Positions 47,171 through 63,431 of a stretch of DNA of 64,000 bases are shown here, piece by piece. Position numbers and translations under genes: made by a program. This DNA comes from a virus. The stretch's first letter is position 1; each line of letters opens with the position of its first letter. The stretch spans positions 1 to 64,000 of IMG/VR virus record IMGVR_UViG_3300031999_000009; one strand, 5' to 3'. The notes beneath the pieces were generated by a model. It searched no databases. It saw only the letters and a program-made list of their open reading frames with translations, and had not been told where the DNA came from.

Positions 47171-47172
47171 AG

Positions 47173-48765: not shown

Positions 48766-49112
48766 GAGTCGGGTTCACGGGCACACGCGCGGGCATGTCG
48801 TCGAAGCAACTCGATGCGTTCGCCGCCGTCTTGAAAACCTATGCGATTGACGAATTCCACCACGGAGGCGCGCGTGGCGCTGACACCGAGGCGGATGCGG
48901 CCGTGAAGCTGATCGCCCCGCTTGCCGCTGTTCACGTGCTCAGGCCCAAGGGCCGCGGCGACGAGTTGGCTCGGAATCGCGTAATCGTGTCGCGCGTCGA
49001 TGTGCTGATCGCGGCGCCACTTCAGGACGAGGAAATCACGCGAAGTGGCACGTGGGCCACGATTCGCTACGCACGGGCGGCTGGAAAGCCCGTGATTCAG
49101 TTGCCGCGATGA
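48762..49112 (+). CDS. SLOG/DprA-like Rossmann nucleotide-binding protein, 116 aa
   Basis: TTG start overlaps the previous stop. Motifs: VGFTGTRAGM at the N-terminus, HHGGARGADTEAD, RPKGRGDELARNRVIVSRVDVLIAAP, GTWATIRYAR. This fits the SLOG superfamily (DprA, LOG, YpsA-like), which binds nucleotides or nucleotide-derived signals. SLOG proteins also occur in anti-phage signalling systems, so in a phage it might sense or sequester a signal; this is inference. Confidence 0.65.
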   Translation: MRVGFTGTRAGMSSKQLDAFAAVLKTYAIDEFHHGGARGADTEADAAVKLIAPLAAVHVLRPKGRGDELARNRVIVSRVDVLIAAPLQDEEITRSGTWATIRYARAAGKPVIQLPR

Positions 49113-49552
49113 CGATTCTGCCGACACATACGTGCTTCGACGACGCTATGGAGGTCGTCAACTTGCTGCTGAAGGAGGGCGACGCCGGTCGTATCGACAA
49201 GGCCAGGCTGGTGCATGGGATCTGCCTCGCGCCAGACGGCCCACTGGCCGGCACGCCGTTCGCGCACGCTTGGGTAGAAGACGGCACCGCGTGTATCCAA
49301 GCCGGCATGCTGAACGGCGAAAAGGTGTTCTTCGGCGTTGAGCGGGAAGAGTATTTGCGCTCCATGCGCGTGCAGGCGAGCACGTCGTATACGCTCTTGG
49401 AGGCGTGCGTGCAGAACCTCGCGAGTTTCCACTTTGGGCCGTGGGAACCTGCATATCTGGCCATCATTCGTCCAGGCGATCGGACGATTTTCTCGGAGGA
49501 CGACCATGGGCGCGACGGCGGGAGCGAACAAGGACCGGAAGCTGCTTCTTGA
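49109..49552 (+). CDS. Hypothetical protein, 147 aa
   Basis: ATG 49109 overlaps the previous stop (ATGA). Alpha/beta protein with VVNLLLKEGDAGRIDKARLVHGICL, FAHAWVEDGTACIQAG and a hydrophobic C-terminal third; resembles small phage proteins of papain-like or transglutaminase-like shape (H...D/E) but no catalytic triad can be assigned. Confidence 0.55.
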   Translation: MTILPTHTCFDDAMEVVNLLLKEGDAGRIDKARLVHGICLAPDGPLAGTPFAHAWVEDGTACIQAGMLNGEKVFFGVEREEYLRSMRVQASTSYTLLEACVQNLASFHFGPWEPAYLAIIRPGDRTIFSEDDHGRDGGSEQGPEAAS

Positions 49553-49655
49553 GAAGCGGCGCCTGATTCGGTGCGGCCACTGCCGTTACCATCGGGTCGA
49601 GAACCAGGGTCGACAGGCCAGGCCGGATCGCTACAAGGACCGGAGGCGCACGTGA
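49506..49655 (+). CDS. Small basic zinc-knuckle protein, 49 aa
   Basis: CGAGGACGACC precedes the ATG. Highly basic with one CGHC motif (RLIRCGHCRYHRVENQG). Probable nucleic-acid binder. Overlaps the end of the previous gene. Confidence 0.55.
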   Translation: MGATAGANKDRKLLLEKRRLIRCGHCRYHRVENQGRQARPDRYKDRRRT

Positions 49656-49789
49656 GGTTGCGCTACTGCACGAACTGCGGCGCAGACACGCGGTGGCCTC
49701 GGTGGTGCGGTGACTGTTGGCGCATGGTGTGGAAAACCGTGCTGGTGCAACTGGTGGCCGCAGCGGTCACGTGGTTGGTTGGTCGCTGA
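49652..49789 (+). CDS. Zinc ribbon with membrane helix, 45 aa
   Basis: GTG overlaps the previous stop. CTNC and CGDC form a compact ribbon; residues ~28-43 (MVWKTVLVQLVAAAVTWLVG) form one membrane segment. Confidence 0.55.
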   Translation: MRLRYCTNCGADTRWPRWCGDCWRMVWKTVLVQLVAAAVTWLVGR

Positions 49790-49826
49790 TTCTGAATAAT
49801 TATTCACGAATTCGCGTCTGCTGCCG

Positions 49827-49855
49827 TTGACTTCCGGCAGCGTTGATAGTATCAT
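49827..49855 (+). promoter_or_regulatory. Promoter P2 of the six-copy regulon
   Basis: TTGACT 49827-49832, 17-bp spacer, TATCAT 49850-49855, TGATAGTATCA inside, GAATTC 13 bp upstream of the -35 (49808-49813). Precedes the 49877 gene and the AAA+ ATPase. Confidence 0.85.
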
Positions 49856-49876
49856 TTGGTGGTAGAGGAGACACAC

Positions 49877-50092
49877 ATGAAGCGACGTTCGATTGTGGAA
49901 TTCGAGAAGACCCTGCTCGCATCTATCGTGGAAGAGAAGGCCACTCTCGCGGCGATGAACGACAATGCTGCGGTGGCGCAGCGAGCGATTTCTGATCAGT
50001 CTGTGCGCGTAGCCACTCTCGAAGGCGTGGCGTTGCAGCTGTCGAAGACGGAACCCACGGAAGAGGCCGCCGAGATCGCGCAGACCGAGTAA
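49877..50092 (+). CDS. Small coiled-coil protein, 71 aa
   Basis: GAGGAG precedes ATG 49877. Mostly helical (VEFEKTLLASIVEEKATLAAMNDN...LEGVALQLSK), probably a short coiled coil. First gene after P2; may partner the ATPase encoded next. Confidence 0.6.
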   Translation: MKRRSIVEFEKTLLASIVEEKATLAAMNDNAAVAQRAISDQSVRVATLEGVALQLSKTEPTEEAAEIAQTE

Positions 50093-50147
50093 GGTTCGTT
50101 CACCCGGCGGCTGATTGACGGCCGCCAAGACAGAGGAGATGACGACG

Positions 50148-51725
50148 ATGGCGAAGAAGATCCCTCCCGTGCCTGACGACGTGACCGTCATTGCACCCGT
50201 GCCCACCGAGAAGCCGACCGCGGCTGAGAGCGCGCTTCTCCAGGCGTTCAAGGCTGCGCGCCGCGTCTCGACGCCGATCGTGGCGATCGAGACTCCTGAC
50301 GCGGCGGCCACAATCGCCATGATTCGGAAGGTGCTGAACGACAAGGCACCGACGCTCTCGTGGGATTGTGCGCGCGGCCTGAAGGGCCTCAACGATCTCG
50401 GCAAGCAGGCGATGGCCAACCTCGGTATCGACCCGCAGCTCACCGTGAACGCCACGGAGACGTTGCTGGCGTGCGAGAACCTGCCCGAATTGTCGGTGGT
50501 GTTCATGCACAACTTCCACCGTCAGGTGAACGAGGCGTCAGTTATCCAGGCGCTCTGGAACCTGCGCGACGTGTTCAAGGTCAACAAGCGGATGATCGTG
50601 CCGTTGGGCTCGAGCTTCCAGATGCCGCCGGAACTGGCCGGCGACGTCATCACCCTCGACGAACCGCTTCCGACCCGCGAGGAGCTGTCGGCGACGCTCG
50701 ACCAGCAGCACAAGAACGCGGAGCTGCCGTTGCCGTCCGAGGAAGTCAGGGAAGCAGCGTTGGACGCCCTTGTGGGGTTGTCGAGCTTCACGGCGGAGCA
50801 GGTGGCGGCGATGTCGCTCACGAAGCAGGGCGTCAACGTCGCAAAGCTGTGGGAGCGCAAGGTCAAGGCCATCCAGAACACCGACGGCCTGCGCGTGTGG
50901 CAGGGACGCCCCGGCGACACGACGATGGACGAGCTGCGCGGCATCGACAACGTGGTCGAGTTCATGCGGAAGTTGGTGCACGCCGACGCGTTCGGCGCCA
51001 TCGTCTTCATCGACGAGATGGACAAGGCGTTCGCGGGTGGCATGTCCGAGCACACCGGTGACTCGGGCGTCAGCAAGGATCAGGTCGGCACGGTGCTGAG
51101 CTACATCGAGGACACGGGCTCACTCGGCGTGTTGCTGGCCGGCGTGGCTGGCACGGGCAAGACCCAGCTGGCGAAGGCCACTGGCGTGGAAGCGGGCAAG
51201 CCGGTCATCGTGTTCGACCTCGGCGGGATGAAGGGCGGCACGGTTGGCCAGTCGGAGCGCACGATTCGCGCCGCGCTCAAGGTGGTGACGGCCACGGCGG
51301 AGGGCCGCGTGCTGTTCATCGGAACGGCGAACCGGACCACGCTGTTCACGCCAGAGCTCAACCGACGGTTCCCCGACCAGTTCTTCTACGACACGCCAGA
51401 CGACGCCGGTCGCTCGGCAATCTGGCCTGTCTACGCGGCGAAGAACGGACTGACGGCCTCGCAGGCGCACGTGCCGCAGGGCTTCGACGCTGGGTGGACT
51501 GGCGCGGAAATCAAGCGCGCCTGTGAGCGGGCGGCCTTGTTCGGCTGCACGGTGGTCGAGGCGGCGCGGTTCATCATCCCGTCCAGCGTGAGCGGCAAGC
51601 GCCAGATCGAGGCGCTCCGGCACGAAGCGGCTGGTCGGTTCCTGTCCGCCAGCTACGACGGGTTCTACCAGGTGCCGCAGGCGCCACAGGTGCCCGTCCA
51701 GCAGCGGTCGATTGAGGTGCAGTGA
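50148..51725 (+). CDS. AAA+ ATPase with permuted Walker motifs, 525 aa
   Basis: ATG 50148 is chosen for its 9-bp spacing from AGAGGAG. The first ~240 residues resemble the N-terminal part of Ycf46-type ATPases. The core is unusual: a Walker B-like AIVFIDEMDKAF (D289, E290) and GDSGVSKDQVGT come first, then Walker A GVAGTGKT (K338), GGTVGQSERTIR, sensor 1 GTAN (N395) and the arginine-finger segment ELNRRF (R406/R407). In canonical relatives Walker A precedes Walker B. All motifs look intact, so activity is likely. Remodelling of a DNA or protein complex is the probable role; the target is unknown. Confidence 0.75.
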   Translation: MAKKIPPVPDDVTVIAPVPTEKPTAAESALLQAFKAARRVSTPIVAIETPDAAATIAMIRKVLNDKAPTLSWDCARGLKGLNDLGKQAMANLGIDPQLTVNATETLLACENLPELSVVFMHNFHRQVNEASVIQALWNLRDVFKVNKRMIVPLGSSFQMPPELAGDVITLDEPLPTREELSATLDQQHKNAELPLPSEEVREAALDALVGLSSFTAEQVAAMSLTKQGVNVAKLWERKVKAIQNTDGLRVWQGRPGDTTMDELRGIDNVVEFMRKLVHADAFGAIVFIDEMDKAFAGGMSEHTGDSGVSKDQVGTVLSYIEDTGSLGVLLAGVAGTGKTQLAKATGVEAGKPVIVFDLGGMKGGTVGQSERTIRAALKVVTATAEGRVLFIGTANRTTLFTPELNRRFPDQFFYDTPDDAGRSAIWPVYAAKNGLTASQAHVPQGFDAGWTGAEIKRACERAALFGCTVVEAARFIIPSSVSGKRQIEALRHEAAGRFLSASYDGFYQVPQAPQVPVQQRSIEVQ

Positions 51726-52141
51726 TGGCAGCCGCACAAGCCGGTTGGACCGACTACGCCATCCTGCAGGCGTCCTCTGGCAACGGGAAGCAGTGGAAGG
51801 TGCAGGTCAACGTCGAGGGCTTGTTCCGGTGCAACTGCCCGTCGTTCATCTTCAGCAAGATGTCGCCCAAGACGTGCAAGCACTGCAAGCGCTGTGAGGA
51901 GCAGCGGCTGACGGAAACGAAGGTCAAGCCGGTGGCTCGTCCGGCAATCGCGCCCTACTGGGACGAGGCGATGGGCTTCCTCGATAAGATGCTGACGCAG
52001 GCCAGCGCGTCCGTGACGGCCGCACAGAAGAAGGTCATGTGCGACGTCCTGGCGACCAAGCTGGCGCTGTTCAGGCCCATGGCGGCAGCGGTGGAAGTCA
52101 CCGAGGTCGTGGGCATCCGGCGGATCACGTTCGACGACTGA
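51725..52141 (+). CDS. SWIM-like zinc-finger protein, 138 aa
   Basis: ATG 51725 overlaps the ATPase stop (TGATG). After a beta N-terminus (GKQWKVQVNVEGLF) comes CxC...CxH: C36, C38, C51, H53, a SWIM pattern, with an extra C54/C57. The C-terminal half is helical. SWIM fingers bind DNA or proteins. Operon partner of the AAA+ ATPase. Confidence 0.65.
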   Translation: MAAAQAGWTDYAILQASSGNGKQWKVQVNVEGLFRCNCPSFIFSKMSPKTCKHCKRCEEQRLTETKVKPVARPAIAPYWDEAMGFLDKMLTQASASVTAAQKKVMCDVLATKLALFRPMAAAVEVTEVVGIRRITFDD

Positions 52142-52186
52142 TCGTAAATCACCCGGCATGCGCCGGGTTCACCAAGGAGCAGGCAG

Positions 52187-52594
52187 ATGGCGAGTCTCAA
52201 CAAGGTTCAATTGATTGGCAATCTCGGGCGCGACGCAGAGCTGAAGTATCTCGCGTCCGGGGCAGCGGTGGCGACCATCAACATGGCGACCACGGAATAC
52301 TGGAACGACAAGGCTGGCCAGAAGCAGGAGAAGACCGAGTGGCACCGGGTCGTCATTTGGGGCAAGACCGCGGAGGGCCTGGCCGAGTATCTCGTGAAGG
52401 GCAAGCAGATCTACGTCGAGGGCCGGCTGCAGACCCGGCAGTGGGACGACAAGGACGGCAACAAGCGCTACACGACCGAGATCCGTGGCGATCGGGTCAT
52501 CCTGCTCGGTGGTGGCAAGGGCGGCGCGGCGCACCCGGCGGCTTCCGGTGAGGAGCCAACCGGCCAGATGCCGGACGACGACATCCCGTTCTAG
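52187..52594 (+). CDS. ssb: Single-stranded DNA-binding protein, 135 aa
   Basis: A complete OB-fold [46 protein letters not shown], and the acidic C-terminal tip DDDIPF used to recruit partner proteins. AAGGAG precedes the ATG. Supports replication and recombination. Confidence 0.95.
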
Positions 52595-52598
52595 GTCG

Positions 52599-52614
52599 AT
52601 ACCGCCGGCGGTAT
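52599..52614 (+). other. 16-bp perfect palindrome, copy 2
   Basis: ATACCGCCGGCGGTAT, identical to 23973-23988. It lies 4 bp after the SSB stop and 5 bp before the parS-like site. Confidence 0.75.
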
Positions 52615-52619
52615 GAACA

Positions 52620-52635
52620 CGTTCCACGTGGAACA
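52620..52635 (+). other. parS: parS-like site, second copy
   Basis: CGTTCCACGTGGAACA contains the 14-bp perfect palindrome GTTCCACGTGGAAC and differs from the symmetric parS (TGTTCCACGTGGAACA) only at the first base. Intergenic, upstream of the 52650 gene. Confidence 0.7.
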
Positions 52636-52649
52636 CTCTGGGAGACGAC

Positions 52650-52970
52650 ATGCTGCACTACAAGCTCGACACTGACGGACAGCCTGTCGCCTGCGATCTC
52701 TTGGAGTGGGCCACGTGGTTCGAGGGCGCCGGCGCCTCACGTATCGTCGCCCAGGACATGGTCGGTGACGTGCAGGTGAGCACGGTCTTCCTCGCGCTGG
52801 ACCACGACTGGTCTGGCGCGGGGCCTCCCGTGCTCTGGGAGACGATGATCTTCGGCGGACGACACTCGGACTACCAGCGCCGCTACTCGTCGCGTGAGGC
52901 GGCCGTGGCGGGCCATGTTGAGGCGCTGGCGCTGGCGTCTGTGACACGGAACATCGAGTTGGAGGACTGA
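52650..52970 (+). CDS. Hypothetical protein, 106 aa
   Basis: TGGGAGACGAC precedes the ATG. A small alpha/beta protein with LWETMIFGG and YSSREAAVAGHVEALALA, a pattern common in short early phage proteins. Overlaps the next ATG by one base. Confidence 0.65.
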   Translation: MLHYKLDTDGQPVACDLLEWATWFEGAGASRIVAQDMVGDVQVSTVFLALDHDWSGAGPPVLWETMIFGGRHSDYQRRYSSREAAVAGHVEALALASVTRNIELED

Positions 52971-53251
52971 TGAAACGGATCACGGTGACGTGGCAGGAGA
53001 CGACCACCTACGCGGTGTCGATTGTCGTGCCGGACGACTACCCGGAGACACTCGAAGAGTTCGCCTCGCCTGAGTGGAGCGCCTACCCACCGAGCGGTGA
53101 TGGCGAGGAAGACTGGTGGGCCCGCGTCGAGGAGCAGTCACCTGATTGGATCCGGACTGGGTGCATTGAAGTGACCGACCGCACGCTCACGGACCTTGAG
53201 CTCGACACGGGGCCGGAGTCCGACCACAACCCCGCCGAGCCTCCGCTCTGA
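52970..53251 (+). CDS. Acidic hypothetical protein, 93 aa
   Basis: ATG overlaps the previous stop (TGATG). Beta N-terminus (RITVTWQETTTYAVSIVVPDD) then a Trp- and acid-rich region. No family recognised; the acidic surface could mimic DNA. Confidence 0.6.
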   Translation: MKRITVTWQETTTYAVSIVVPDDYPETLEEFASPEWSAYPPSGDGEEDWWARVEEQSPDWIRTGCIEVTDRTLTDLELDTGPESDHNPAEPPL

Positions 53252-53265
53252 TTCCGAGGTGACTC

Positions 53266-53436
53266 ATGACTGTTGTCGACAACGTCGTTGCAGCCTACAG
53301 ACTCGCGCTGACCGTGGCCTCCTCGCGTGAGGACGTGACGAACATCATCGCCGAATTGACCCAGAGCATCCGCGCGCTCGACGTCGTGCGCCTCGAAGGG
53401 ATCGAACAGCGTCGGAAGATGGGCACGCCCGCGTGA
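53266..53436 (+). CDS. Small helical protein, 56 aa
   Basis: CGAGGTGAC precedes the ATG. MTVVDNVVAAYRLALTVASSREDV... is all-helical. Overlaps the following tiny ORF by GTGA. Confidence 0.6.
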   Translation: MTVVDNVVAAYRLALTVASSREDVTNIIAELTQSIRALDVVRLEGIEQRRKMGTPA

Positions 53437-53489
53437 AATTATTCGGAGCCGCCTTGGTTGCCGCCCCGTTGCTTCTTCTCACGGCCTAG
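53433..53489 (+). CDS. Tiny hydrophobic peptide ORF, 18 aa
   Basis: GTG start coupled to the previous stop; (M)KLFGAALVAAPLLLLTA is entirely hydrophobic after a lysine. Could be a real membrane peptide or a chance ORF. Confidence 0.3.
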   Translation: MKLFGAALVAAPLLLLTA

Positions 53490-53587
53490 TGCGCGAGTCG
53501 GGATGGCGCGTGGCGATGGCCACGTGGTTGATCGTGTCCGCCGTGGTCGCGTCGATCTCTGTCGGCGCCTGGCTCCTCGCGCACTGA
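53489..53587 (+). CDS. Small membrane protein, 32 aa
   Basis: GTG at the last base of the previous stop. Residues ~9-31 (AMATWLIVSAVVASISVGAW) form one membrane segment after a charged start. Coupling supports it, but its length leaves doubt. Confidence 0.4.
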   Translation: MRESGWRVAMATWLIVSAVVASISVGAWLLAH

Positions 53588-53617
53588 AATTAGTTAAAGA
53601 TTTCGGGCGTGAGGGTG

Positions 53618-53646
53618 TTGACTCCTGCCGCGATTGATAGTATCAT
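53618..53646 (+). promoter_or_regulatory. Promoter P3 of the six-copy regulon
   Basis: TTGACT 53618-53623, 17-bp spacer, TATCAT 53641-53646 with TGATAGTATCA. GATTTC replaces GAATTC 13 bp upstream. Precedes the SWIM primase-polymerase gene. Confidence 0.85.
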
Positions 53647-53682
53647 TGTCTTATGTTGATGGAGACGATGATGGAGACAAAC

Positions 53683-54465
53683 ATGACCACTTGGGAATTC
53701 CCGAGCACCACGACAAGCGAGATTCACACCGTCACCCTGGTCGACCCGCGCACGAAGTTTCTGACGTGCACCTGCACTGGTTTCAAGTATCGCCGCGACT
53801 GCTGGCACACCAAGGCGGTCGCCGAAAAGATTTCCCCGGCGGTGGCACCGGCTGACAACAAATTTCTTCGAGCCGCGCTCGACTATCACAAGATGGGCTA
53901 CCACGTGATTCCGGTCGAGCCGAACGGCAAGCGGCCACTCGTGCAGTGGAAAGATTTCATGACCGTCAAGCCGACGCTGGGCCAGATCAAGACCTGGTGG
54001 ATGCGCACCCCGAACGCCAACGTGGCGATTGTGCTCGGCCAGAACCGGTTTGCGGTGGACCTGGACGGCGGCGCCGAAGCCGAAAAATTATTGGCGGACG
54101 CGGGCATCGAGCTTCCCGCCGACGCGCCCCGCAGCAAGACAGGCGGCGGCAATCACGTGTTCCTGTCCGCGCCCACGCCGCAACCTGACCGAATCGGTCT
54201 GCTGAAGGCGGCCGAGCCGCTGGCCGGCGCACTGCCCACGCCGAAGGGCAAGCTGCGCCACGCGCAAATCGACATCCGCGGCCTCGGAATAATTATCGCG
54301 GCCCCGTCCGTGCACCCGAGCGGTGCCGTCTACACGTGGCTGTCGCCGCTGACGGCCACGCCGCCGATGGCGTCGGACGCGCTGCTGGAGCTCATCGCCT
54401 ACGTGCCTCCGCCGCCACCGAAGAAGCCGCGGGCGCCGCGCAAGGCAAAGGTCGTGGTGTCATGA
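53683..54465 (+). CDS. SWIM finger plus AEP-type primase-polymerase, 260 aa
   Basis: ATG 53683 gives MTTWEF, matching the ligase gene's start. Residues 1-50 are a SWIM module (C29, C31, C40, H42). From ~60 to 235 is a bifunctional primase-polymerase N-terminal domain: YHKMGYHVIPVEPNGKRPL, NANVAIVLG, metal-binding VDLDG (D126, D128), GGGNHVFLS and DIRGLGIIIAAPSVHPSG. AEP enzymes make primers or fill short gaps; LigD-type polymerases in bacterial end joining are also AEP proteins, though of a different subfamily. No helicase is fused. Confidence 0.8.
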   Translation: MTTWEFPSTTTSEIHTVTLVDPRTKFLTCTCTGFKYRRDCWHTKAVAEKISPAVAPADNKFLRAALDYHKMGYHVIPVEPNGKRPLVQWKDFMTVKPTLGQIKTWWMRTPNANVAIVLGQNRFAVDLDGGAEAEKLLADAGIELPADAPRSKTGGGNHVFLSAPTPQPDRIGLLKAAEPLAGALPTPKGKLRHAQIDIRGLGIIIAAPSVHPSGAVYTWLSPLTATPPMASDALLELIAYVPPPPPKKPRAPRKAKVVVS

Positions 54466-54542
54466 AGAAAATAATTCTCCTGGCCACCTTCTGCTGGCTC
54501 GTGCTGCTGCTCGGTCAATACGCGGGGCAGCACGGATGGTAG
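54462..54542 (+). CDS. Small membrane peptide, 26 aa
   Basis: ATGA overlap with the primase-polymerase stop. MKKIILLATFCWLVLLLGQY is one membrane helix with a basic start. Its end overlaps the next ATG. Confidence 0.5.
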   Translation: MKKIILLATFCWLVLLLGQYAGQHGW

Positions 54543-54763
54543 TCGCGACCTACCCGTCGTCGACTGAGCCTGGCGTCACACACACCGTCACGGTGAAGAC
54601 GCGCCCCGGCACCAGGCAGGTGGCGTTGAAGTGCACGTGTAAAGGGTTCACGCGCGCGGCGCGCTGGCACTCCTGCTGGCATGTCCGCGAGGTGGCTCAA
54701 CGAAATAATTATTTGACCGTGGTCGGCGGCGAGCTGTTCGGCTACACACCGGAGGCCAAATGA
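54536..54763 (+). CDS. Stand-alone SWIM zinc finger, 75 aa
   Basis: The protein is little more than a SWIM module: THTVTVK, then C33, C35, C47, H49 and a short helix. It shares the HTVT[LV] lead-in with the modules of the primase-polymerase and ligase. Overlaps both neighbours by a few bases. Confidence 0.7.
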   Translation: MVVATYPSSTEPGVTHTVTVKTRPGTRQVALKCTCKGFTRAARWHSCWHVREVAQRNNYLTVVGGELFGYTPEAK

Positions 54764-55908
54764 CCTGGGAGTTTGCGTCGAAGTCTAGCAGTGCTGTTCA
54801 CACCGTGACGCTCCACCCCTCTGGCGAACTCGTGTGCACGTGCAGCGGCTGGCGTTTCAAGAAGCCTGGCAAGCCACGTGAGTGCACGCACATGACGGGG
54901 CTCATCAAAAAGAATTCGTGGTCACGGGACGTGAAGGGCGACCTCGTGATCATCAAAGAATCCGTCGAAAATAGTCCGAATTCGGTCGTGCCTCTCTTGA
55001 CTCCGCCTGTCGATGATAGTATCATTGTTCTTGTAGGAGGGACACCAACAATGAACACAACGATGACCACCCCCACTCAGACGGCCCCGGACGCGCAGCT
55101 TGCGGTGGGCATGACCACCCCGGTGAGCGGTGCGGCGTTCAACGAAAAATATGGCGACGGCACCTGGTCGATGGACGAGAAGCTCGACGGCCACCGGTGC
55201 TTGGTCGTGAAGCGCGGCGAGGACATCAAGTGCTGGTCACGCGGCGGCGCCGGTCGTGCCAGCCTCGAAAAGAAAGTGACCCCAGCCATCCTGTCCGCCA
55301 TCGCGCAGATGCCCGACGGCATCTACGACGGCGAGCTGATGATTCCCGGCGGCAACTCATGGAACGTGGTGGACCTGGCCAGGCAGCACGAGCTGGTGGT
55401 CATCCTGTTCGACGTGCAGGAGATTCTGGGCCAGAACGTGTGCAAGGAACCACAGTCCATGCGGCGCGACCTGCTCGCGCAGGCGGTGGCGCACGTGAAG
55501 ACGGACGCGGTGCGGTTGGTGGCCAGCTTCACGCCGGAGTGGGCGGTCATCGAAAAGATTTGGGCCGAGGGTGGCGAGGGCGTCATCGTCAAAAAGAATT
55601 CTGCCCCCTACCGCCCCGGCTACCGGTCGGATGCGTGGGTCAAGGTGAAGCAGCTGATGTCGGTGGTCGGCGTCATTACCGGGTTCAAGGCTGGCTCGTT
55701 CGGTCCCCACTCAGTAACCTGCGTGACCCTGGACAGCGGCGTCAAAACCCAGGTCAAGACACTGGACACCGTGACGCTGGCGGCGATCGAAAAAAATCCC
55801 GAATCTTTCCTCGGCCACCGACTGGTGATTCAGTGCCAGCAGGTGGTGGCGTCGAGCGGCTGCCCGCGTCATCCGATGTGGGACCACATGGCGGGAGACA
55901 CGGAATGA
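54760..55908 (+). CDS. SWIM finger plus ATP-dependent DNA ligase, 382 aa
   Basis: Residues 1-50 form a SWIM module (MTWEF...HTVTL; C26, C28, C42, H44). A linker (~70-130) contains an in-frame promoter and ribosome site. The ligase core follows: motif I EKLDG with nucleotide-binding K141, DGEL, EGVIVK (E273), and motif V WVKVK (K295, K297), then a short OB-like C-terminal part. It seals DNA nicks using ATP. A shorter form from ATG 55051 (285 aa, lysine at 44) starts after AGGAGGG and lacks the SWIM finger. No LigD polymerase or phosphoesterase domain is fused. Confidence 0.85.
   Translation: MTWEFASKSSSAVHTVTLHPSGELVCTCSGWRFKKPGKPRECTHMTGLIKKNSWSRDVKGDLVIIKESVENSPNSVVPLLTPPVDDSIIVLVGGTPTMNTTMTTPTQTAPDAQLAVGMTTPVSGAAFNEKYGDGTWSMDEKLDGHRCLVVKRGEDIKCWSRGGAGRASLEKKVTPAILSAIAQMPDGIYDGELMIPGGNSWNVVDLARQHELVVILFDVQEILGQNVCKEPQSMRRDLLAQAVAHVKTDAVRLVASFTPEWAVIEKIWAEGGEGVIVKKNSAPYRPGYRSDAWVKVKQLMSVVGVITGFKAGSFGPHSVTCVTLDSGVKTQVKTLDTVTLAAIEKNPESFLGHRLVIQCQQVVASSGCPRHPMWDHMAGDTE
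54997..55025 (+). promoter_or_regulatory. Promoter P4, inside the SWIM-ligase ORF
   Basis: TTGACT 54997-55002, 17-bp spacer, TATCAT 55020-55025, TGATAGTATCA, GAATTC 13 bp upstream (54978-54983). It encodes LLTPPVDDSII in frame. AGGAGGG and ATG 55051 follow, giving a ligase without the SWIM module. Confidence 0.8.
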
Positions 55909-56222
55909 AAAATAAATTCCGCGCACTGCTCGCCCACTTGCGGCATCGCCTGTTTCACGGTGAGCACCATCACCTGCAGGAGCACGGCGACCGCGAAATA
56001 TTTCTTCGATGCTCACTGTGTGGGCTTCGATCGCCAGGCGTGCTCCTGGGGCCAGGGCCTCGTCCGGCGCTGGCTGGCGACCCCGTCCGTGCCAAGGCTC
56101 TTGTCGCCTCTGTCTCGCGCATCGTGCCACCGCTCGTGGCCGCGCCAGTGACAGCAGACGAGATTCGGTGGTTGGTCCACGAAGACGAAGACGACTTTCC
56201 TTCGATGCGACAGGTTCATTAG
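55905..56222 (+). CDS. Hypothetical protein with CxxC, 105 aa
   Basis: ATGA overlap with the ligase stop. N-terminus rich in His/Arg (LLAHLRHRLFHGEHHHLQEHGDR), then CSLC and a hydrophobic-acidic C-terminus (TADEIRWLVHEDEDDF). May bind zinc. Unknown role. Confidence 0.55.
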   Translation: MKNKFRALLAHLRHRLFHGEHHHLQEHGDREIFLRCSLCGLRSPGVLLGPGPRPALAGDPVRAKALVASVSRIVPPLVAAPVTADEIRWLVHEDEDDFPSMRQVH

Positions 56223-56231
56223 GAGACGACG

Positions 56232-56690
56232 ATGAAGGTATCAGAGGTCGGCTTGCTCGACGAATGCTTCACGCACATCGCGGAAGACGGAAAGCAGACC
56301 AGCTACGCGGTCACCAAGCTGGTTGAGTATCTGGCCGCCCACAATTGGGAGAAGGTGGTGGTGCCCGTCGAGGAGTTCCACGCGGCCTACTGTGTCAACA
56401 ACCGCGGTGTCGAGCCTGACCGCATCGCTCGCCTGCTTCAGTGCGTGCCGGCGTTGGTGCGGCCGATCGTGTTCATCCACATGCCGGACAACTCGCACCT
56501 GTTGGTGGATGGCACGCACCGCTACGTGGCGCTCTTCGGGCTGAATCGAACGGAAATCTTCGCGCACATGGTGCCGTGGGACATCGCTAAGGACTTCATC
56601 CTCGAGGACATTCCCAACACGACACCCGAGCGGTTGATGCAGCACTCGCACCTCTCGCAACTTCGCGAGCTTCTCGGGATCGATCGGTAG
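56232..56690 (+). CDS. ParB/sulfiredoxin-like fold protein, 152 aa
   Basis: AGGAGACGACG precedes the ATG. The block VVVPVEEFHAAY...RPIVFIHMPDNSHLLVDGTHRYVALFGLN is typical of ParB-like nuclease/Srx-fold domains. No DNA-binding HTH is present, so it is not a parS-binding segregation ParB. Confidence 0.65.
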   Translation: MKVSEVGLLDECFTHIAEDGKQTSYAVTKLVEYLAAHNWEKVVVPVEEFHAAYCVNNRGVEPDRIARLLQCVPALVRPIVFIHMPDNSHLLVDGTHRYVALFGLNRTEIFAHMVPWDIAKDFILEDIPNTTPERLMQHSHLSQLRELLGIDR

Positions 56691-56888
56691 ATGCCCACGC
56701 TGGTCATCACGATGGCAAATGGGTCCGTCCAGCGGCACAAGGGATGGACGCTGGAAATGGCCGAGCGGCTCAAGGCATCCTGGGCGCAGATCACCCCTCC
56801 ACCGGTCTTCACGATCGCGTGGGAGGACATAGGAGACGACGATGGCGGTTACAAAAGCGGCAAAGCTCGACGACCTCAATCTCGGTGA
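56691..56888 (+). CDS. Small hypothetical protein, 65 aa
   Basis: ATG is the base after the previous stop. An alpha/beta N-terminus (TLVITMANGSVQRHKGWTLEMAERLKASW) and a charged tail. Its end overlaps the next gene by 47 bp. Confidence 0.5.
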   Translation: MPTLVITMANGSVQRHKGWTLEMAERLKASWAQITPPPVFTIAWEDIGDDDGGYKSGKARRPQSR

Positions 56889-57147
56889 TTTCGTCTATGA
56901 CATGCACGACGGTTTGCGCCCGTTGCGCGAGCGCTTCGGCATCATCTCCATGGTGCAGTGGCACCACTCCAGCGAAAACGTCCAGCCGTTCGTCGGGCCC
57001 AAAGGGTGGAAGTTTCCGAACAAGGAGCTGCGCGTGATCGGCTTCACGGATGAAGGCCACGCCGTGTGTGGCTTCACCTACGACGGTATCCGCAGCGGCA
57101 TTCTGGTGCTGTCGGACTTGGTCACTGGCCCAGACCCGAGGGATTGA
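56842..57147 (+). CDS. Hypothetical protein, 101 aa
   Basis: AGGAGACGACG precedes the ATG. Beta-rich (LNLGDFVYDMHDGLRP...RVIGFTDEGHAVCGFTYDG), SH3-like in pattern. No family recognised. Confidence 0.6.
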   Translation: MAVTKAAKLDDLNLGDFVYDMHDGLRPLRERFGIISMVQWHHSSENVQPFVGPKGWKFPNKELRVIGFTDEGHAVCGFTYDGIRSGILVLSDLVTGPDPRD

Positions 57148-57149
57148 GC

Positions 57150-57263
57150 ATGTCAAGGTTCGTGGGAGTTGTGATCGGTGCGTGTTTCGTCGTGGGCTGC
57201 CTCGCGCTGGCGATCGCCTTCGCCGCGTGGTCCGTCCATCTGGCGTGGAGCCAATTTCAATGA
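57150..57263 (+). CDS. Small membrane protein, 37 aa
   Basis: GAGGGATTGAGC precedes the ATG. MSRFVGVVIGACFVVGCLAL starts a single membrane helix that runs to ~residue 27. Confidence 0.5.
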   Translation: MSRFVGVVIGACFVVGCLALAIAFAAWSVHLAWSQFQ

Positions 57264-57565
57264 CCTTCCAGGTCTGGCATCGTCGCCTTCCCACGTTCAT
57301 GGAGAGCCGGCCGGAGGAACTTGTCGCCTTCCCGCAAGGGTGGCAGCACGTTGCTGACGTGGACGTGGACGCATTGAACCAGGTCTTCGAGCGGACCAAT
57401 AGCATCGACGCGCTGTGGACCGACAACCTGGAAGTGACGCTCCGCGTGGCTCCACCGCTTCGGTCGACGTCAGTCGGGGACGTGATCGTCGCGCCCAATG
57501 CGGTCGGCCTGAACGGACAGCCTGCCAGGCTTGAAATCGCGATGCTCGGTTACAAGGAGTTCTGA
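57260..57565 (+). CDS. YodL-like hypothetical protein, 101 aa
   Basis: ATG overlaps the previous stop (ATGA). Ends with NQVFERTNSIDALWTDN and RSTSVGDVIV, a signature seen in small YodL-like domains of phage and anti-restriction proteins. Activity unknown. Confidence 0.6.
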   Translation: MTFQVWHRRLPTFMESRPEELVAFPQGWQHVADVDVDALNQVFERTNSIDALWTDNLEVTLRVAPPLRSTSVGDVIVAPNAVGLNGQPARLEIAMLGYKEF

Positions 57566-57566
57566 G

Positions 57567-58484
57567 ATGGTCAAGAACAGGAAGCGGGCCTACGCCGGCG
57601 TGCTGGACATTCCCGAGGGCGAGCAGAACGGCATCCGGATTCGCCACAAGCATCAACCGCCTGGCACTACGCTCCAGTCAGGCAACTTCCGCACGGCGTT
57701 GTTCGGCCAGAAATCGGAGAGCGTCACGTTCAAGGCCGCGACTATCTGGCACGAGCTGTCCGAGAAGGGCCAGGGCGTGTGGATGACGGACCTCCCGATC
57801 GAGCAGCGCCAGATGGACGAGCTCATCACCAAGGCCCGCGGACGGGTGCTGGTGGGCGGGCTTGGGCTGGGTTACGCGGTGGTGGCGTTGTCGGCGATGC
57901 GCTCTGTTGAGGAAATCGTCGTGGTCGAGCGCAACCCTGACATCGTGGCGCTCGTGTGGGCGGCGACGGTCGCCAAGTGCCGCAAGGGCGTCCCCGTTTC
58001 CGTGGTGACCGAAGACTTGTTCGACTACTTGCTGTGGGCGACAGCCAAGCAGGAGAGGTTCGATTGGGGCCTCTTCGACATCTGGCAGGGCGACGGTGAA
58101 ACGACCTTTCACCAGACCGTCGTGCCGCTGCGCGCCGCCGCCGCGCGTGTCGTTCGCGAGCTGGAGTGCTGGAACGAAGACGTCATGCGCGGCCAGCTGA
58201 TGATGGGCCTCCGGACGCGCCTGATGTTCCTGGGCGCAGCGGAAACGGCGAGTGTCGTGGGGTCTGATCTGACGAAGGGCATGCCGACCCTCGAGTTCCT
58301 GTGCGAGCCGCACCAATCCATCTACACCGACTGGTCGGTGGCGTTCTGGCGCTGGTATCGCGAAAACGCTGGTGCCGCCAACATCGACGTGATGCTGGCA
58401 CTTTACGCGTCCAGCTACGGTCGCCCAGAACGGGCAGCAACGCTAGCGCGATTCGAGGCACGCCATGAGCTTCAAGCTCGGTGA
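57567..58484 (+). CDS. Spermidine-synthase-like methyltransferase fold, 305 aa
   Basis: ATG 57567 follows AAGGAG. Residues ~92-160 form a Rossmann fold with GRVLVGGLGLGYAVVAL and EIVVVERNPDIVALV, then FDWGLFDIWQGDGE, as in spermidine-synthase-like and class I methyltransferases. The substrate is unknown. C-terminus is helical and overlaps the next gene by 20 bp. Confidence 0.65.
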   Translation: MVKNRKRAYAGVLDIPEGEQNGIRIRHKHQPPGTTLQSGNFRTALFGQKSESVTFKAATIWHELSEKGQGVWMTDLPIEQRQMDELITKARGRVLVGGLGLGYAVVALSAMRSVEEIVVVERNPDIVALVWAATVAKCRKGVPVSVVTEDLFDYLLWATAKQERFDWGLFDIWQGDGETTFHQTVVPLRAAAARVVRELECWNEDVMRGQLMMGLRTRLMFLGAAETASVVGSDLTKGMPTLEFLCEPHQSIYTDWSVAFWRWYRENAGAANIDVMLALYASSYGRPERAATLARFEARHELQAR

Positions 58485-58674
58485 GTTGCTCGGATCGGAA
58501 GAGATTCACGTGCGCCTGGAGTGTGCGACTGGGAAGGCTCCCTTCGATAGTCGACAGGACGCCAACCGCGCCCTCAAGCGATTGCCTCGGTCTGGGCCCA
58601 CGCGGATGACGGTGTTCCGATGCGGCTATTGCGAGAAGTATCACCTCGGCCACCGTCGAGGAGCAGTTCTGTGA
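58465..58674 (+). CDS. Small zinc-knuckle protein, 69 aa
   Basis: Starts within the end of the methyltransferase gene. Residues ~50-62 (FRCGYCEKYHLGH) form a Cys2His2-like knuckle after a helix with basic residues. Likely nucleic-acid binding. Confidence 0.6.
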   Translation: MSFKLGELLGSEEIHVRLECATGKAPFDSRQDANRALKRLPRSGPTRMTVFRCGYCEKYHLGHRRGAVL

Positions 58675-58838
58675 GTAAACGATGCCCACGATGCGAGTCG
58701 CCGGACCCGGCACGGCATCCCGCCATGCAGTTCGAGGGGGAAGTGCAAATCTGTGAGCACCCTTGGCACGGCATACCAATCGACACGAGCACGAAGCGAT
58801 TGGGAGCCCAGGCCAGAGCGGCCGAGGAGGGGAAGTGA
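58671..58838 (+). CDS. Small zinc-ribbon protein, 55 aa
   Basis: GTG overlaps the previous stop. SKRCPRCESPDPARHPAM, then CEHPWH, gives Cys/His ligands for zinc. Confidence 0.55.
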   Translation: MSKRCPRCESPDPARHPAMQFEGEVQICEHPWHGIPIDTSTKRLGAQARAAEEGK

Positions 58839-58954
58839 GGGGACCAACTCCTCGGCGTCTTGGGCGCCACAATCCCCGGCGCACGATACTGTTGCGACAT
58901 CGACTCACGACATCCCTGTGGGGTCTTGGCCGCGAGCGAGGAGGAGAACGATGA
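58835..58954 (+). CDS. Possible tiny basic protein, 39 aa
   Basis: GTG overlaps the previous stop; the product is Arg-rich (RRLGRHNPRRTILLRHRL). It could be an untranslated spacer; only the coupled start supports it. Confidence 0.3.
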   Translation: MRGPTPRRLGRHNPRRTILLRHRLTTSLWGLGRERGGER

Positions 58955-59385
58955 GTGCCAAGAGAAAGGTTCAGATTCCGTCCATTGGCGACCTGTTGGT
59001 GCTCGCCGCACCGTGGCAATTCCACGTGGTGAATGAGCATCGGAACGCCACGCTTGTCGCTCACATGGGGAAAACAGTGCCAGGCCGGTCCTATTACCCG
59101 CTGGGCGTCACCCAAGCCGCGTCATGGCACCCGTTGCCTTCGACGCTCTGGTGCACGATCCCCTCCGGCGCCGTGCTCCGCGTCTCGCGTATCTACATCC
59201 GCGCTGGTGCGGCCGCCTACGACTCAGTGACGTTCTGGTGGAAGCCATCGCCGAAGGCGAAATCGGTTCGATTCTTCGCTCGACTGCCAGATGTGAACAA
59301 GATGTCGGTGCGCTCTGATGCCTGGACCGCCCGAGACGAGGCCGACCCGGTCCTTGGTGCCCGAGCGATCGAATTGGAGGAGTGA
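58951..59385 (+). CDS. Hypothetical protein, 144 aa
   Basis: GAGGAGGAGAACG precedes the ATG. Beta-rich body (IGDLLVLAAPWQFHVVNEHRNATLVAHMG...LRVSRIYIRAGAAAYDSVTFWW). No family recognised. Confidence 0.6.
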   Translation: MSAKRKVQIPSIGDLLVLAAPWQFHVVNEHRNATLVAHMGKTVPGRSYYPLGVTQAASWHPLPSTLWCTIPSGAVLRVSRIYIRAGAAAYDSVTFWWKPSPKAKSVRFFARLPDVNKMSVRSDAWTARDEADPVLGARAIELEE

Positions 59386-59567
59386 TGACATGCGTGAACT
59401 GCGGTAAGAATGAGGCGCCGCTGGTGATTTGCGACCAGTGCCGCCAGTCCTATCCCGGCGACCCGCAGGTGCTCGAAATGATGGTGCACGCGTTCCAGCT
59501 GTATCGCGTGCCTGTCCTTGAGGCGTCCCCGGCTCCGTCGTGGCCGAAGAAGGTCGATCCGCAATGA
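59385..59567 (+). CDS. Small zinc-ribbon protein, 60 aa
   Basis: ATG 59385 overlaps the previous stop (TGATG); GTG 59382 is the alternative. CVNC at residues 3-6 and CDQC at ~17-20 form a rubredoxin-like knuckle pair. Confidence 0.6.
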   Translation: MTCVNCGKNEAPLVICDQCRQSYPGDPQVLEMMVHAFQLYRVPVLEASPAPSWPKKVDPQ

Positions 59568-59758
59568 GCTTCATTCGCGTGCTCTGGGCACAGCGCGGCG
59601 GCCACATCCATTGTCGCGTGTTCGTTTCGAAGACGGAGGACGGCCCAGGCCATGCGTCCGGCAATCTCGTGTTCGACGTAGACGAGTGGCCCTGGGTGGC
59701 CCGCCGACTTGCGTATGTGGCTGGGATGGTTGTCGTTCACGAAGGAGACAACACGTGA
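59564..59758 (+). CDS. Hypothetical protein, 64 aa
   Basis: ATGA overlap with the previous gene. Beta-rich (FIRVLWAQRGGHIHCRVFVSK...LVFDVDEWPWVARRL). Overlaps the helicase start by GTGA. Confidence 0.55.
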   Translation: MSFIRVLWAQRGGHIHCRVFVSKTEDGPGHASGNLVFDVDEWPWVARRLAYVAGMVVVHEGDNT

Positions 59759-60987
59759 GCTTCGTCCTGCGCGACTACCAAGAAAACGCCGTATCGCGAG
59801 GCGTGCAATTCTTGAAGTCTGGCACTGGCGGCGGCTTGGTCGTGCTGCCGACCGGTGCTGGCAAGTCGTTGGTCATCGCCGGCATCGCCAGTCGCCTGGA
59901 TGGTCCGTGCCTGATTTTCCAGCCGTCGCGCGAAATCCTCCAGCAGAACGCAACGAAGTTGCTGGCGTATGGCTACGAGCCGTCCGTCTACTCCGCGTCG
60001 ATGGGCGTGAAGGAGGTTGGCCACATTACGCTGGCGACCATCGGAAGCGTGAAGGCGCGACCGGACTTGTTCGACGCCTTCCCCTACATCATGGTGGATG
60101 AGGCCCACCTGGTGAATGCCAAGTCCGGCATGTATCAGGAGTTCATCGAGTCCATGGGCGACGTGCGCGTCCTGGGGTTGACGGCAACGCCGTTCCGACT
60201 GTCGACCGATGGCTACGGTGGTTCGCAGTTGAAGTTTCTGACACGCACCAGGCCGCGCTTCTTTCACACGGTCGTGGCCTATGCCCAAATCCCAGACCTG
60301 ATCCAGCGCGGCTATCTGTTCAAGCCGGAATACCAGGCCGTGACTGGCTTCACGGCCTCGGCTTTGAAGCTGAACACGACAGGCGCGGACTACACGGACG
60401 ATTCCGTGAAGCGCCATTTCAACCAGATCGGCTTCGCTGACCGCCTGCGCCGCATCGTCCTGCGTCTCTTGGAAGTGGGGCGCCGGAATGTGCTGGTCTT
60501 CACGCGGTTCGTAGATGAGGCCGAAGCGCTGGCGCGCACCGTGCCTGGCACGGCCGTCGTGACGGCAGCTACGAAGTCGCACGAGCGCGAGCAAATCATC
60601 GCAGACTTCAGGTCTGGCGTGATCAAGGTGGTGGCGAACGTCGGCGTGCTGGGCTTGGGCTTCGACTTCCCTGAGCTGGAGACGGTGGTGCTGGCCAGGC
60701 CGACCGTTTCGCTGGCGCTCTACTATCAGCAGGTCGGGCGCCTGCTGCGACCACACCCCGCGAAGACGTCCGCGTGGGTGGTGGACATGGTTGATCAGGT
60801 CCGTCAGTTTGGGCCGATCGAAAACTTGTGGCTTCAACCAGGCGGACCCAGTGGGATGCTCTGGGAGATGGTGACGCGCACGGATGGCGTGACGAAGCCG
60901 TTGACGAACACGTATTTCGGTGGCGATCCGACGGGACGACGAAAGAAGTGGGATCGCAAGCGGAAGTGGGGAACCAATGGACGTTGA
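59755..60987 (+). CDS. DEAH-type SF2 helicase, 410 aa
   Basis: GTG 59755 overlaps the previous stop and follows GAAGGAGAC. Motifs in order: Q-motif-like LRDYQENAV, Walker A PTGAGKS (K37), DEAH at 115-118, TATPFR, and motif VI QQVGRLLRP. The layout matches phage UvsW/RecG-like and restriction-helicase-like short SF2 enzymes. It probably unwinds or remodels DNA at forks or recombination intermediates. The C-terminus is basic. Confidence 0.85.
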   Translation: MSFVLRDYQENAVSRGVQFLKSGTGGGLVVLPTGAGKSLVIAGIASRLDGPCLIFQPSREILQQNATKLLAYGYEPSVYSASMGVKEVGHITLATIGSVKARPDLFDAFPYIMVDEAHLVNAKSGMYQEFIESMGDVRVLGLTATPFRLSTDGYGGSQLKFLTRTRPRFFHTVVAYAQIPDLIQRGYLFKPEYQAVTGFTASALKLNTTGADYTDDSVKRHFNQIGFADRLRRIVLRLLEVGRRNVLVFTRFVDEAEALARTVPGTAVVTAATKSHEREQIIADFRSGVIKVVANVGVLGLGFDFPELETVVLARPTVSLALYYQQVGRLLRPHPAKTSAWVVDMVDQVRQFGPIENLWLQPGGPSGMLWEMVTRTDGVTKPLTNTYFGGDPTGRRKKWDRKRKWGTNGR

Positions 60988-61213
60988 GCAGGCAGATTCG
61001 TCGCATGAGAAATGGGCAGACACAGCCGAATTGGTGGCCGAGAACCCGGCCGCGGCCACCGCGAAGTCGTTGCGGTTGGCGTTGGCGTATCTGTCGTATC
61101 GGCGGGCGGCGCTCATCTTGAACGCGCGCCGCAAGAAGCGAGAGCCCTCCGAAAAGAAGTTGGCAGCGATCGACGCGCGGTTGCAGCACTACGCCGAATT
61201 GCTTCAGAAATAG
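60977..61213 (+). CDS. Small helical protein, 78 aa
   Basis: ATG lies inside the end of the helicase gene. Long charged helix (AAATAKSLRLALAYLSYRRAALILNARRKKREPSEKKLAAIDARLQHYAELL). Possibly a helicase partner or a nucleic-acid-binding factor. Ends 24 bp before promoter P5. Confidence 0.6.
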   Translation: MDVEQADSSHEKWADTAELVAENPAAATAKSLRLALAYLSYRRAALILNARRKKREPSEKKLAAIDARLQHYAELLQK

Positions 61214-61237
61214 TCAAAGAATTCGGAGACGAAGGTG

Positions 61238-61266
61238 TTGACTCCTGCGCCCTTTGATAGTATCAT
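61238..61266 (+). promoter_or_regulatory. Promoter P5 of the six-copy regulon
   Basis: TTGACT 61238-61243, 17-bp spacer, TATCAT 61261-61266 with TGATAGTATCA, GAATTC 13 bp upstream (61219-61224). It is followed by about 430 bp without a convincing gene. Confidence 0.85.
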
Positions 61267-61696
61267 TATTCTTGTAAGGAGGGGTGGGCGGCCGGAGGGG
61301 CTGTCACCGCGCCGGGTCAGAAGAGGGCCCGAACGCTCACCCACTTTGACAACTGAATCAGTCCAACGTGACCGGGCCCGAGTGGGTCGGGTTGCAGGAG
61401 ACGGCCGACATATCCGGTAGGGACGCCAGCGCCGGACACACTAAGGCCGGGAGACATCTCCCCTGTAGGAACGCTGAAGTTACGTTGGACTGATTGGGTT
61501 GTCGGGGACACACGCCGGCGCGCGCAAGGGCAAGCGATTCCGCACGGACAAGCACTTCCGGGCGTTGCCCGATACGAAGGCGCCCTGTATCGGGAAAGGC
61601 GACGGCGGCCTTGACGACCCGCACTCTGCGTCGGATGTTAGGTTCAAGTAATTGGACCCATGCACGAAAGGTCCGACGCGCACTTTGGAGGCGATG
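61267..61696 (+). ncRNA. Structured leader or non-coding RNA downstream of P5
   Basis: The transcript begins TTCTTGTAAGGAGGGG but this ribosome site leads only to a 21-codon GTG ORF. A perfect 14-bp inverted repeat, AATCAGTCCAACGT (61356-61369) and ACGTTGGACTGATT (61482-61495), extends to 17 bp with one G-U and encloses ~110 nt with smaller hairpins (CCCGA/TCGGG; GGGAGA/TCTCCC). CCCGATAC/GTATCGGG (61569-61595) is a further hairpin. No known RNA family is recognised. Confidence 0.5.
61499..61651 (+). CDS. Possible small protein, 50 aa
   Basis: A TTG at 61499 begins (M)SGTHAGARKGKRFRTDKHFRALPDTK and ends SASDVRFK at TAA 61649-61651. The residue pattern looks coding and basic, but there is no good ribosome site and it overlaps the end of the inverted repeat region. 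Confidence 0.35.
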   Translation: MSGTHAGARKGKRFRTDKHFRALPDTKAPCIGKGDGGLDDPHSASDVRFK

Positions 61697-62071: not shown

Positions 62072-62220
62072 GCAAGACCAGCGACTGGGCCATCCGCGTG
62101 CTGAACGAGGAGCCGCCCTTGAACAAATACGAGCGCGTGGTGCGCTACGACGCGTCGATGCTCAGGATGCAACGCATCTGGGCCTACCTTCTGAAAAGAA
62201 AGATGAGGCTCTACCGATGA
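62068..62220 (+). CDS. Small basic protein, 50 aa
   Basis: ATGA overlap with the previous gene. Helical and basic (NKYERVVRYDASMLRMQRIWAYLLKRKMR). Overlaps the next ATG by four bases. Confidence 0.6.
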   Translation: MSKTSDWAIRVLNEEPPLNKYERVVRYDASMLRMQRIWAYLLKRKMRLYR

Positions 62221-62543: not shown

Positions 62544-62568
62544 CTCGCTGCCGGATTGATAGTATCAT
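62540..62568 (+). promoter_or_regulatory. Promoter P6 of the six-copy regulon, upstream of Ku
   Basis: TTGACT 62540-62545, 17-bp spacer, TATCAT 62563-62568 with TGATAGTATCA. GAATTA 11 bp upstream of the -35. The -35 overlaps the HNH stop codon. Confidence 0.85.
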
Positions 62569-62630
62569 CGTTTGGTAAGGTGATGACGACCACTTCGGCA
62601 ACCACGGTGACTACGAAGGAGACGACGACA

Positions 62631-63431
62631 ATGGCCATGCGCTCAATCCTCAACTTGAACATCAGCCTCGGAATGTTCGGCTTCCCGGTCAAGGTTTACA
62701 AGGCAGTGAACGACCCCGCGGAGGGCATCTCGTTCCGCCAGGTGCACGCAGCGTGCGGCACCCCGATCAACCAGGTGAAGCGCTGCTCCTGCTGCAACGT
62801 CGACGTGACGCAGGCGGAGCTGGTCAAGGGCTACGAGCAGCCCGGTGGCCCGATGCTGATCTTCCAAGAGGACGAGATCAAGGCCCTCAAGCCCGAGGCG
62901 ATGGGCACGGTCAAGGTCGACGGCTACCTCGCCGCTGACGAAATCGACCCCTGTTACCAGGACGGCCCCATCTACTACTTGTCACCTGACCGCGGCACCA
63001 ACAAGAAGGGCGACTGCGACACGTTCACCACCTGGCGCGACGCGCTGGCTGGCCGGTGGGCCATCGGCAAGGTCGTCATGTATGGCCGCGAGCACGTGGT
63101 GGCGATTCGCAGCGTCGACCGCCTCTTGGCGATGCACTTCATTCGGACCCACTCGGAGATTCGCAACGTGTTCGACGTGCCGGCCTACGACACGGTGCCG
63201 GAGACGAGCAAGAGCGAATACGCCGAGCTGATGGGCCAGCTCATTCGCAAGTCCACCATCGCGTTCGACGACGTGGTGCTGGAGTCTGACGCCTACACGG
63301 ACTCGGTGAAGGCGCTGATCGAGTCGCGCAAGGCAGGCCAGCCCGCTCCGGCGCAGGCTGAGTTCAAGCCCGCGTCCACCGGTGGCGACCTGCTCGCGAT
63401 GCTGAAGGCGTCATTGGCGGCTCAGGCGTGA
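62631..63431 (+). CDS. ku: Ku-type DNA end-binding protein, 266 aa
   Basis: ATG 62631 follows GAAGGAG; upstream in-frame starts overlap the promoter. Typical bacterial Ku core: SILNLNISLGMFGFPVKVYKA, ISFRQVHAACGTPINQVKRCSCCNVDV, LVKGYEQPGG, then a core alpha/beta beta-barrel and C-terminal helices. Homodimeric Ku threads onto double-strand ends and recruits ligase. The C-terminal tail is short. Phage Ku is known in a few phages such as Corndog and Omega. It shares its promoter type with the ligase and primase-polymerase. Confidence 0.9.
   Translation: MAMRSILNLNISLGMFGFPVKVYKAVNDPAEGISFRQVHAACGTPINQVKRCSCCNVDVTQAELVKGYEQPGGPMLIFQEDEIKALKPEAMGTVKVDGYLAADEIDPCYQDGPIYYLSPDRGTNKKGDCDTFTTWRDALAGRWAIGKVVMYGREHVVAIRSVDRLLAMHFIRTHSEIRNVFDVPAYDTVPETSKSEYAELMGQLIRKSTIAFDDVVLESDAYTDSVKALIESRKAGQPAPAQAEFKPASTGGDLLAMLKASLAAQA

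Follow-up and report, generated by a model that had tools for sequence, protein, structure and literature searches.

The gene at positions 54760-55908 of a viral DNA stretch of 64,000 nucleotides (IMG/VR record IMGVR_UViG_3300031999_000009, positions 1 to 64,000; hereafter the window) joins a SWIM-like module to an ATP-dependent DNA ligase and holds, in the linker between the two, a sigma-70-type promoter match, P4. Taken together with two related phages, this arrangement suggests that the gene probably makes two ligases, a SWIM-ligase from an upstream transcript and the ligase alone from the linker promoter. An earlier note, prepared from the letters of the window, had described the arrangement, and its anatomy was borne out: the open reading frame (ORF) runs from SWIM to ligase without an internal stop (382 aa, or 285 aa from ATG 55051), P4 (54997-55025), the sequence AGGAGGG and ATG 55051 all lie in the joint and in frame with both parts, and the linker peptide at P4 reads LLTPPVDDSII. 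Coordinates are listed in Table 1.

Domains of the SWIM-ligase

SWIM zinc fingers are defined by the signature CxC-xn-CxH. The corresponding CxC..CxH motif of the SWIM-ligase spans residues 26-44, and C26, C28, C42 and H44 are unchanged in all five aligned SWIM modules. The N-terminal 97 aa are without any Pfam match. An AlphaFold2 model of the SWIM piece (54760-54966) reached a predicted local distance difference test score (pLDDT) of 77.8; the model of the full SWIM-ligase (pLDDT 38) was set aside and supports no claim.

A match to the ATP-dependent DNA ligase domain covers residues 129-297 (PF01068, 4.8e-18; phrog_114, 6e-31), and the nucleotidyltransferase motifs that mark such ligases are present, including KxDGxR and the later Glu and Lys: K141, D143, G144, R146, E192, E273 and K295 are invariant in a ligase alignment of seven sequences (A1). 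Every invariant column of this alignment falls after ATG 55051, and in all three phages all ligase motifs lie downstream of the candidate short-form starts. The chain showed neither a polymerase nor a nuclease domain, its 382 aa matching only ligase-type or related nucleotidyltransferase families in Pfam and PHROG, and the SWIM-ligase is therefore not a LigD.

In each of the three phages the long-form start and the end of the preceding gene overlap by 4 nt (ATGA in the window; start codon ATG or GTG across the three), and the preceding gene differs, being a 75-aa SWIM protein in the window and other genes in the two relatives. Compared by eye, the end of the free-standing SWIM protein of the window (...YTPEAK) corresponds to ...AATPDVE of the relative L014, directly ahead of the -35 box, so that the promoter appears to occupy a former gene boundary.

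The promoter element and its reading frame

The hexamers of P4 agree with TTGACA/TATAAT at 10 of 12 positions and are separated by a 17-nt spacer (16-18 nt being taken as sigma-70-type), as they are in both relatives. About 6e-6 matches to the 12 hexamer bases would be expected in a stretch with the composition of the P4 linker, and P4 is thus more than a chance promoter match. The element TTGACT-N17-TATCAT occurs in eight copies in the 83,273-base record (window 48278, 49827, 53618, 54997, 61238 and 62540; L004 3959 and 18943), all on the + strand and none on the other. The two hexamers are common to all eight, but P4 has A at element position 17 where the other seven have T, so that the exact consensus claimed for P4 in the earlier note holds for the hexamers and not for the whole element.

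All eight copies can be read through in frame 0 (TTG ACT ...), whereas the other two frames are closed, one of them by the TGA within TTGACT; the promoter therefore never stops an upstream gene in frame 0. This makes weak, when taken alone, the earlier argument that a promoter which also encodes protein and still keeps its consensus must be selected as DNA. Among random linkers as long as that of the window, with only the hexamers kept, 0.23-0.48 are free of stops, and by our own arithmetic a chance fusion has a probability of about 0.04 per element (the stop-free probability times 1/9 for two frame registers) and about 0.3 over eight elements. Selection on the fused frame therefore cannot be concluded from the window alone, and the open frame there was dropped as proof of selection; a comparison of the two relatives with each other takes the place of the argument.

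Comparison with related phages

Relatives among IMG/VR phages were found by ligase homology and not by frame. A query aligned from the ligase part of the window and the Xp15 ligase (A2) matched 14 loci in viral_contigs, two of which, L014 and L015, are true relatives (ligases 46% and 44% identical, respectively). The single window protein as ligase query gave no match in viral_contigs or genome_contigs and the query A3 none in genome_contigs, while A3, the L015 protein and a Ku alignment (A4) recovered from viral_contigs only the two contigs already known; as further searches return the same two contigs, the comparison rests on three phages. A 5.7-kb contig found via its primase (L006; primase/helicase 72% identical, following gene order partly the same) has neither the ligase region nor the promoter element.

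In both relatives the SWIM-like module and the ligase form one unbroken ORF (L014, 2608-3774, 388 aa; L015, 2632-3792, 386 aa), and the linkers hold TTGACTTCGTCTTCGATTGCCACTATCAT (2824-2852) and TTGACTTCCGGGAACATCGCCATTATCAT (2845-2873), respectively, again in the frame that the element has in the window. An open frame across P4 in related phages had been set beforehand as a test of the proposal; both relatives keep it, together with an in-frame TTGACT-N17-TATCAT, so that the exact element and the open frame are kept together in three of three phages. In each of the two relatives, scanning the locus over its first 4,200 bases with the consensus gave a single promoter-like site, the linker element itself. 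At up to two mismatches the element has eight copies in the window record, five in G001 and seven in G002, the records of the relatives (linker copies included), in each record on one strand only and in G001 and G002 always on the ligase-carrying strand; a reversed control pattern had no copy in the three records.

The count of open frame-0 codons on either side covered all 20 elements in the three records; the last window copy lies in a locus truncated at the end of the record. Frame 0 is open for at least 50 codons on both sides at three elements, which are exactly the SWIM/ligase sites (96/303, 74/316 and 120/315 open codons upstream/downstream), and none of the remaining 17 reaches 20 open codons on both sides.

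Between L014 and L015, the ratio of nonsynonymous to synonymous substitution rates (dN/dS) was 0.124 for SWIM codons 1-66 and 0.127 for ligase codons 113-388, as compared with 0.92 for linker codons 67-82, which also contain one 3-nt indel (one codon). Within these linker codons 20 of 45 bases differ, distributed as 0 of 12 in the hexamers and 20 of 33 elsewhere (P = 1.8e-4 for random placement). A constrained SWIM module, a constrained ligase, a linker peptide that is nearly free and hexamers that are fixed form the pattern expected if fused product and promoter are both kept. Judged by these ratios, the finger is a constrained part of the protein despite having no stop of its own. In the window, the G+C content of third codon positions (GC3) is 0.37 in linker codons 71-97 versus 0.76 in the SWIM part and 0.85 in the ligase part, and the low value in the linker fits constraint at the DNA level.

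Proposed production of two ligases

Transcripts of the upstream operon, read from ATG 54760, would give the long form; P3, at 53618 and 1.4 kb upstream, is a plausible source of such a transcript in the window and would be the simplest one. P4, as a sigma-70-type site of the phage's own recurrent promoter family, would give a short transcript, which would be read from ATG 55051 into a ligase without the SWIM module. The joint itself has the look of a SWIM gene fused to a ligase gene at a promoter that carries no stop in frame 0. Through its SWIM part the long form would be directed to a partner or DNA ends, perhaps together with Ku, and the short form would add untargeted ligase. The ORF, the element family and the conservation of both in two relatives are observed, whereas we infer the activity of P4, the existence of the two proteins and this targeting role of the SWIM part.

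As a more tentative and rather doubtful extension, the promoter may act as a frame-sensitive junction: in frame 1 the TGA of the -35 box would end the upstream gene (as with the helicase before Ku in both relatives), and in frame 0 the element would become a protein linker. Acquisition of a promoter at a gene end could then produce a fused gene with a switch between tagged and untagged product, in the present case a SWIM-tagged and an untagged ligase in a phage end-joining set (Ku, ligase and the SWIM-Prim-Pol of the window).

Alternative explanations

Several observations weigh against the production of two forms. The proteins of L014 and L015 are 88% identical, which leaves about two independent lineages among the three phages, and an unselected linker stays open with a probability of 0.23-0.65 before frame registration. 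An element with at most two mismatches was not found near upstream of the SWIM-ligase in the relatives, the next one being 8.6 kb away in G002 and none occurring within about 6 kb upstream in G001. The short-form start is less clear there, as it may be ATG 88 (L014 numbering) after AAAGGTG/AGAGGCG or a GTG slightly further on after GAGGAGG. The Pfam SWIM family (PF04434) matched neither the whole SWIM-ligase, nor its N-terminal 97 aa, nor either relative, and the AlphaFold2 model of the SWIM piece gave no fold match at E <= 0.001.

It is unlikely that only the fused protein matters and that the promoter-like stretch of the linker is without activity or effect. The fused SWIM-Prim-Pol in the same operon does show such fusions in use, but the hexamers remained unchanged at 12 of 12 positions between L014 and L015 while 20 of 33 neighbouring bases changed, and all three phages have the exact element in the linker and carry the element in front of other genes as well. 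The opposite view, in which the ligase alone is the functional product and the fusion an accidental read-through of a SWIM gene that lost its stop, accounts for the non-coding-like codon use of the linker (GC3 0.37) and for the free SWIM protein of the window ending about where the linker begins, and one open frame among eight elements is not rare by chance. It is nevertheless improbable: the fusion is kept in three of three phages with indels in frame, and purifying selection on a SWIM module without a stop of its own means that the selected thing belongs to the SWIM-ligase. Selection on the linker peptide, LT..(x)II, from which the promoter match would merely follow, would explain why L-T and I-I recur at the same spacing in all three linkers, yet it is very improbable, given that the codons concerned are minority codons in the window phage (TTG 0.19 of Leu, ACT 0.08 of Thr, ATT 0.21 of Ile) and have fractions of 0.08, 0.05 and 0.33 in the relatives (a small sample which includes the sites themselves), and that 17 sites have the same bases without frame 0 being an extended coding frame on both sides.

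Relation to known systems

The Tn5 inhibitor is without the N-terminus of the transposase, and gene 4 of phage T7 gives forms with and without an N-terminal zinc module, the short form arising by an internal translation start. Two forms from one frame are thus already known. As in Tn5/IS50, one reading frame with two promoters would yield an N-terminally shortened protein from the downstream one; unlike in Tn5, the phage promoter lies about 0.24 kb inside the gene, in an interdomain linker, it would drop a whole zinc-finger module, and the gene is a DNA ligase. The likeness to T7 gp4A/4B is that of a phage replication enzyme with and without an N-terminal zinc module, the difference being a separate promoter before the internal start of the SWIM-ligase. 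Transcripts T1 and T2 from overlapping promoters are described for the Tn5 transposase and its inhibitor (PMC4265352), and proteins of 63 kDa and 56 kDa for T7 gene 4 (PMC5090872). Internal starts are reported for plasmid Rep proteins in an account in which an internal promoter was tested and excluded (PMC6854812).

Among systems with Ku, the mycobacteriophages Omega and Corndog are described as carrying Ku and using the host LigD (PMC7719229), and phage Ku working with a host ligase is on record (PMC7719229, PMC8136500). The phages compared here likewise combine Ku and an ATP-dependent ligase, as do phage Ku systems and bacterial Ku-LigD, but unlike in Omega and Corndog the ligase is phage-encoded, fused to SWIM and not a LigD. 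The nearest other phage ligases found, at 22-29% identity, are ATP-dependent enzymes of the Xp15 kind, the majority with an extra N-terminal module; the CxC..CxH motif is absent from all 12 of these loci (the upstream part of L019 is cut by the contig end). Most of these other phage ligases (L016-L027) carry a different module, GTWRIW...AHATV.GG, which we take to recall WGR by resemblance only. It seems that N-terminal modules of various kinds are acquired within this ligase family. The literature searched, which was limited to one library, gave no paper on a SWIM-ligase.

Neighbouring genes and other features

Table 1. Positions of the SWIM-ligase gene, its parts and neighbouring features in the window
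Feature	Position	Strand	Basis
SWIM-ligase ORF, putative long form, 382 aa	54760..55908	+	Translation without internal stop; domain matches
SWIM-like module of SWIM-ligase (C26, C28, C42, H44)	54760..54966	+	Motif alignment, AlphaFold2 model
Linker that also holds the promoter module	54967..55050	+	GC3 0.37 in codons 71-97
Ligase alone, putative short form, 285 aa	55051..55908	+	All conserved ligase columns present
P4, TTGACT-N17-TATCAT = TTGACTCCGCCTGTCGATGATAGTATCAT	54997..55025	+	In frame as TTG ACT ... AGT ATC ATT
AGGAGGG, candidate ribosome-binding site of short form	55035..55041	+	Nine bases before ATG 55051
P3, TTGACT-N17-TATCAT upstream of SWIM-PrimPol	53618..53646	+	Element scan
SWIM-PrimPol ORF, 270 aa, SWIM module fused to Prim-Pol	53653..54465	+	Pfam; bounds are those of the ORF
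Free-standing SWIM-like protein, 75 aa	54536..54763	+	Stop overlaps SWIM-ligase start by 4 nt (ATGA)
Ku homologue ORF	62556..63431	+	phrog_4873, 9.4e-25; directly behind element copy 62540; bounds are those of the ORF

SWIM-like modules are clustered in the window, one fused to Prim-Pol (53653-54465), one free (54536-54763) and one fused to the ligase (54760-54966); a fourth CxC..C-type protein was seen by eye at 51722-52138, before SSB. The SWIM-PrimPol matches the Pfam families SWIM (5.6e-5, above the gathering score) and Prim-Pol (2e-26), and its module is paralogous to the N-terminus of the SWIM-ligase (45% identity over residues 2-50, E 7.9e-6). No match to the SWIM-Prim-Pol was found in either relative.

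Ku is encoded in all three phages, and the proteins of the relatives are 62% (G002, a match that contains one TAG) and 61% (G001) identical to that of the window, which is 27-31% identical to other phage Ku among the matches listed, nearly all of them from mycobacteriophages. The presence of Ku in all three phages makes end joining a plausible role, and a phage-encoded end-joining or genome-circularising set would be a reasonable guess. In both relatives the ORF before Ku (the helicase in L037), with a length of 402-403 codons, ends at the TGA in the -35 box (TTGACA) of the Ku promoter (L037 1363-1391, L053 and L054).

A 13-bp palindrome, ATGATAGTATCAT, spans the -10 box of P4, and the elements of the window phage in general carry an 11-bp palindrome over the -10 box, TGATAGTATCA (in one copy TGATATTATCA), which is likely an operator. 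In the relatives, by contrast, the majority of copies are similar to GGG..CATTGGNATTA(C/T)CATT. The 13-bp palindrome was rejected as part of the conserved signal, its core TGATA-N-TATCA being present in 8 of 8 copies in the window phage and in 0 of 12 in the relatives; a shared promoter with operators particular to each lineage would be in keeping with different repressors. Contig L003, matched by a pattern with the wrong spacer, has no copy of the element (best five mismatches), and the foreign contig L005, whose one match with the right spacer is at about the chance level estimated for that collection, was left out of the comparison.

Eight tRNA genes and a tmRNA gene (predicted tag AQEAFELPIAA) are located at 368-1900 of the window. 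Runs of at least eight A/T (e.g., AATAATTATT) number 10 in window positions 44001-64000, compared with a mean of 1.9 (maximum 7) in 40 first-order random sequences, and several of them fall within genes.

Significance

If the gene does make two ligases, gene callers report one ligase where two exist, and the choice of promoter would switch a catalytic enzyme between a finger-bearing and a bare form. The arrangement would also show concretely how phage promoters located at the ends of genes can give rise to fused proteins. With a phage group that has its own Ku and its own ligase, phage-encoded end joining becomes testable.
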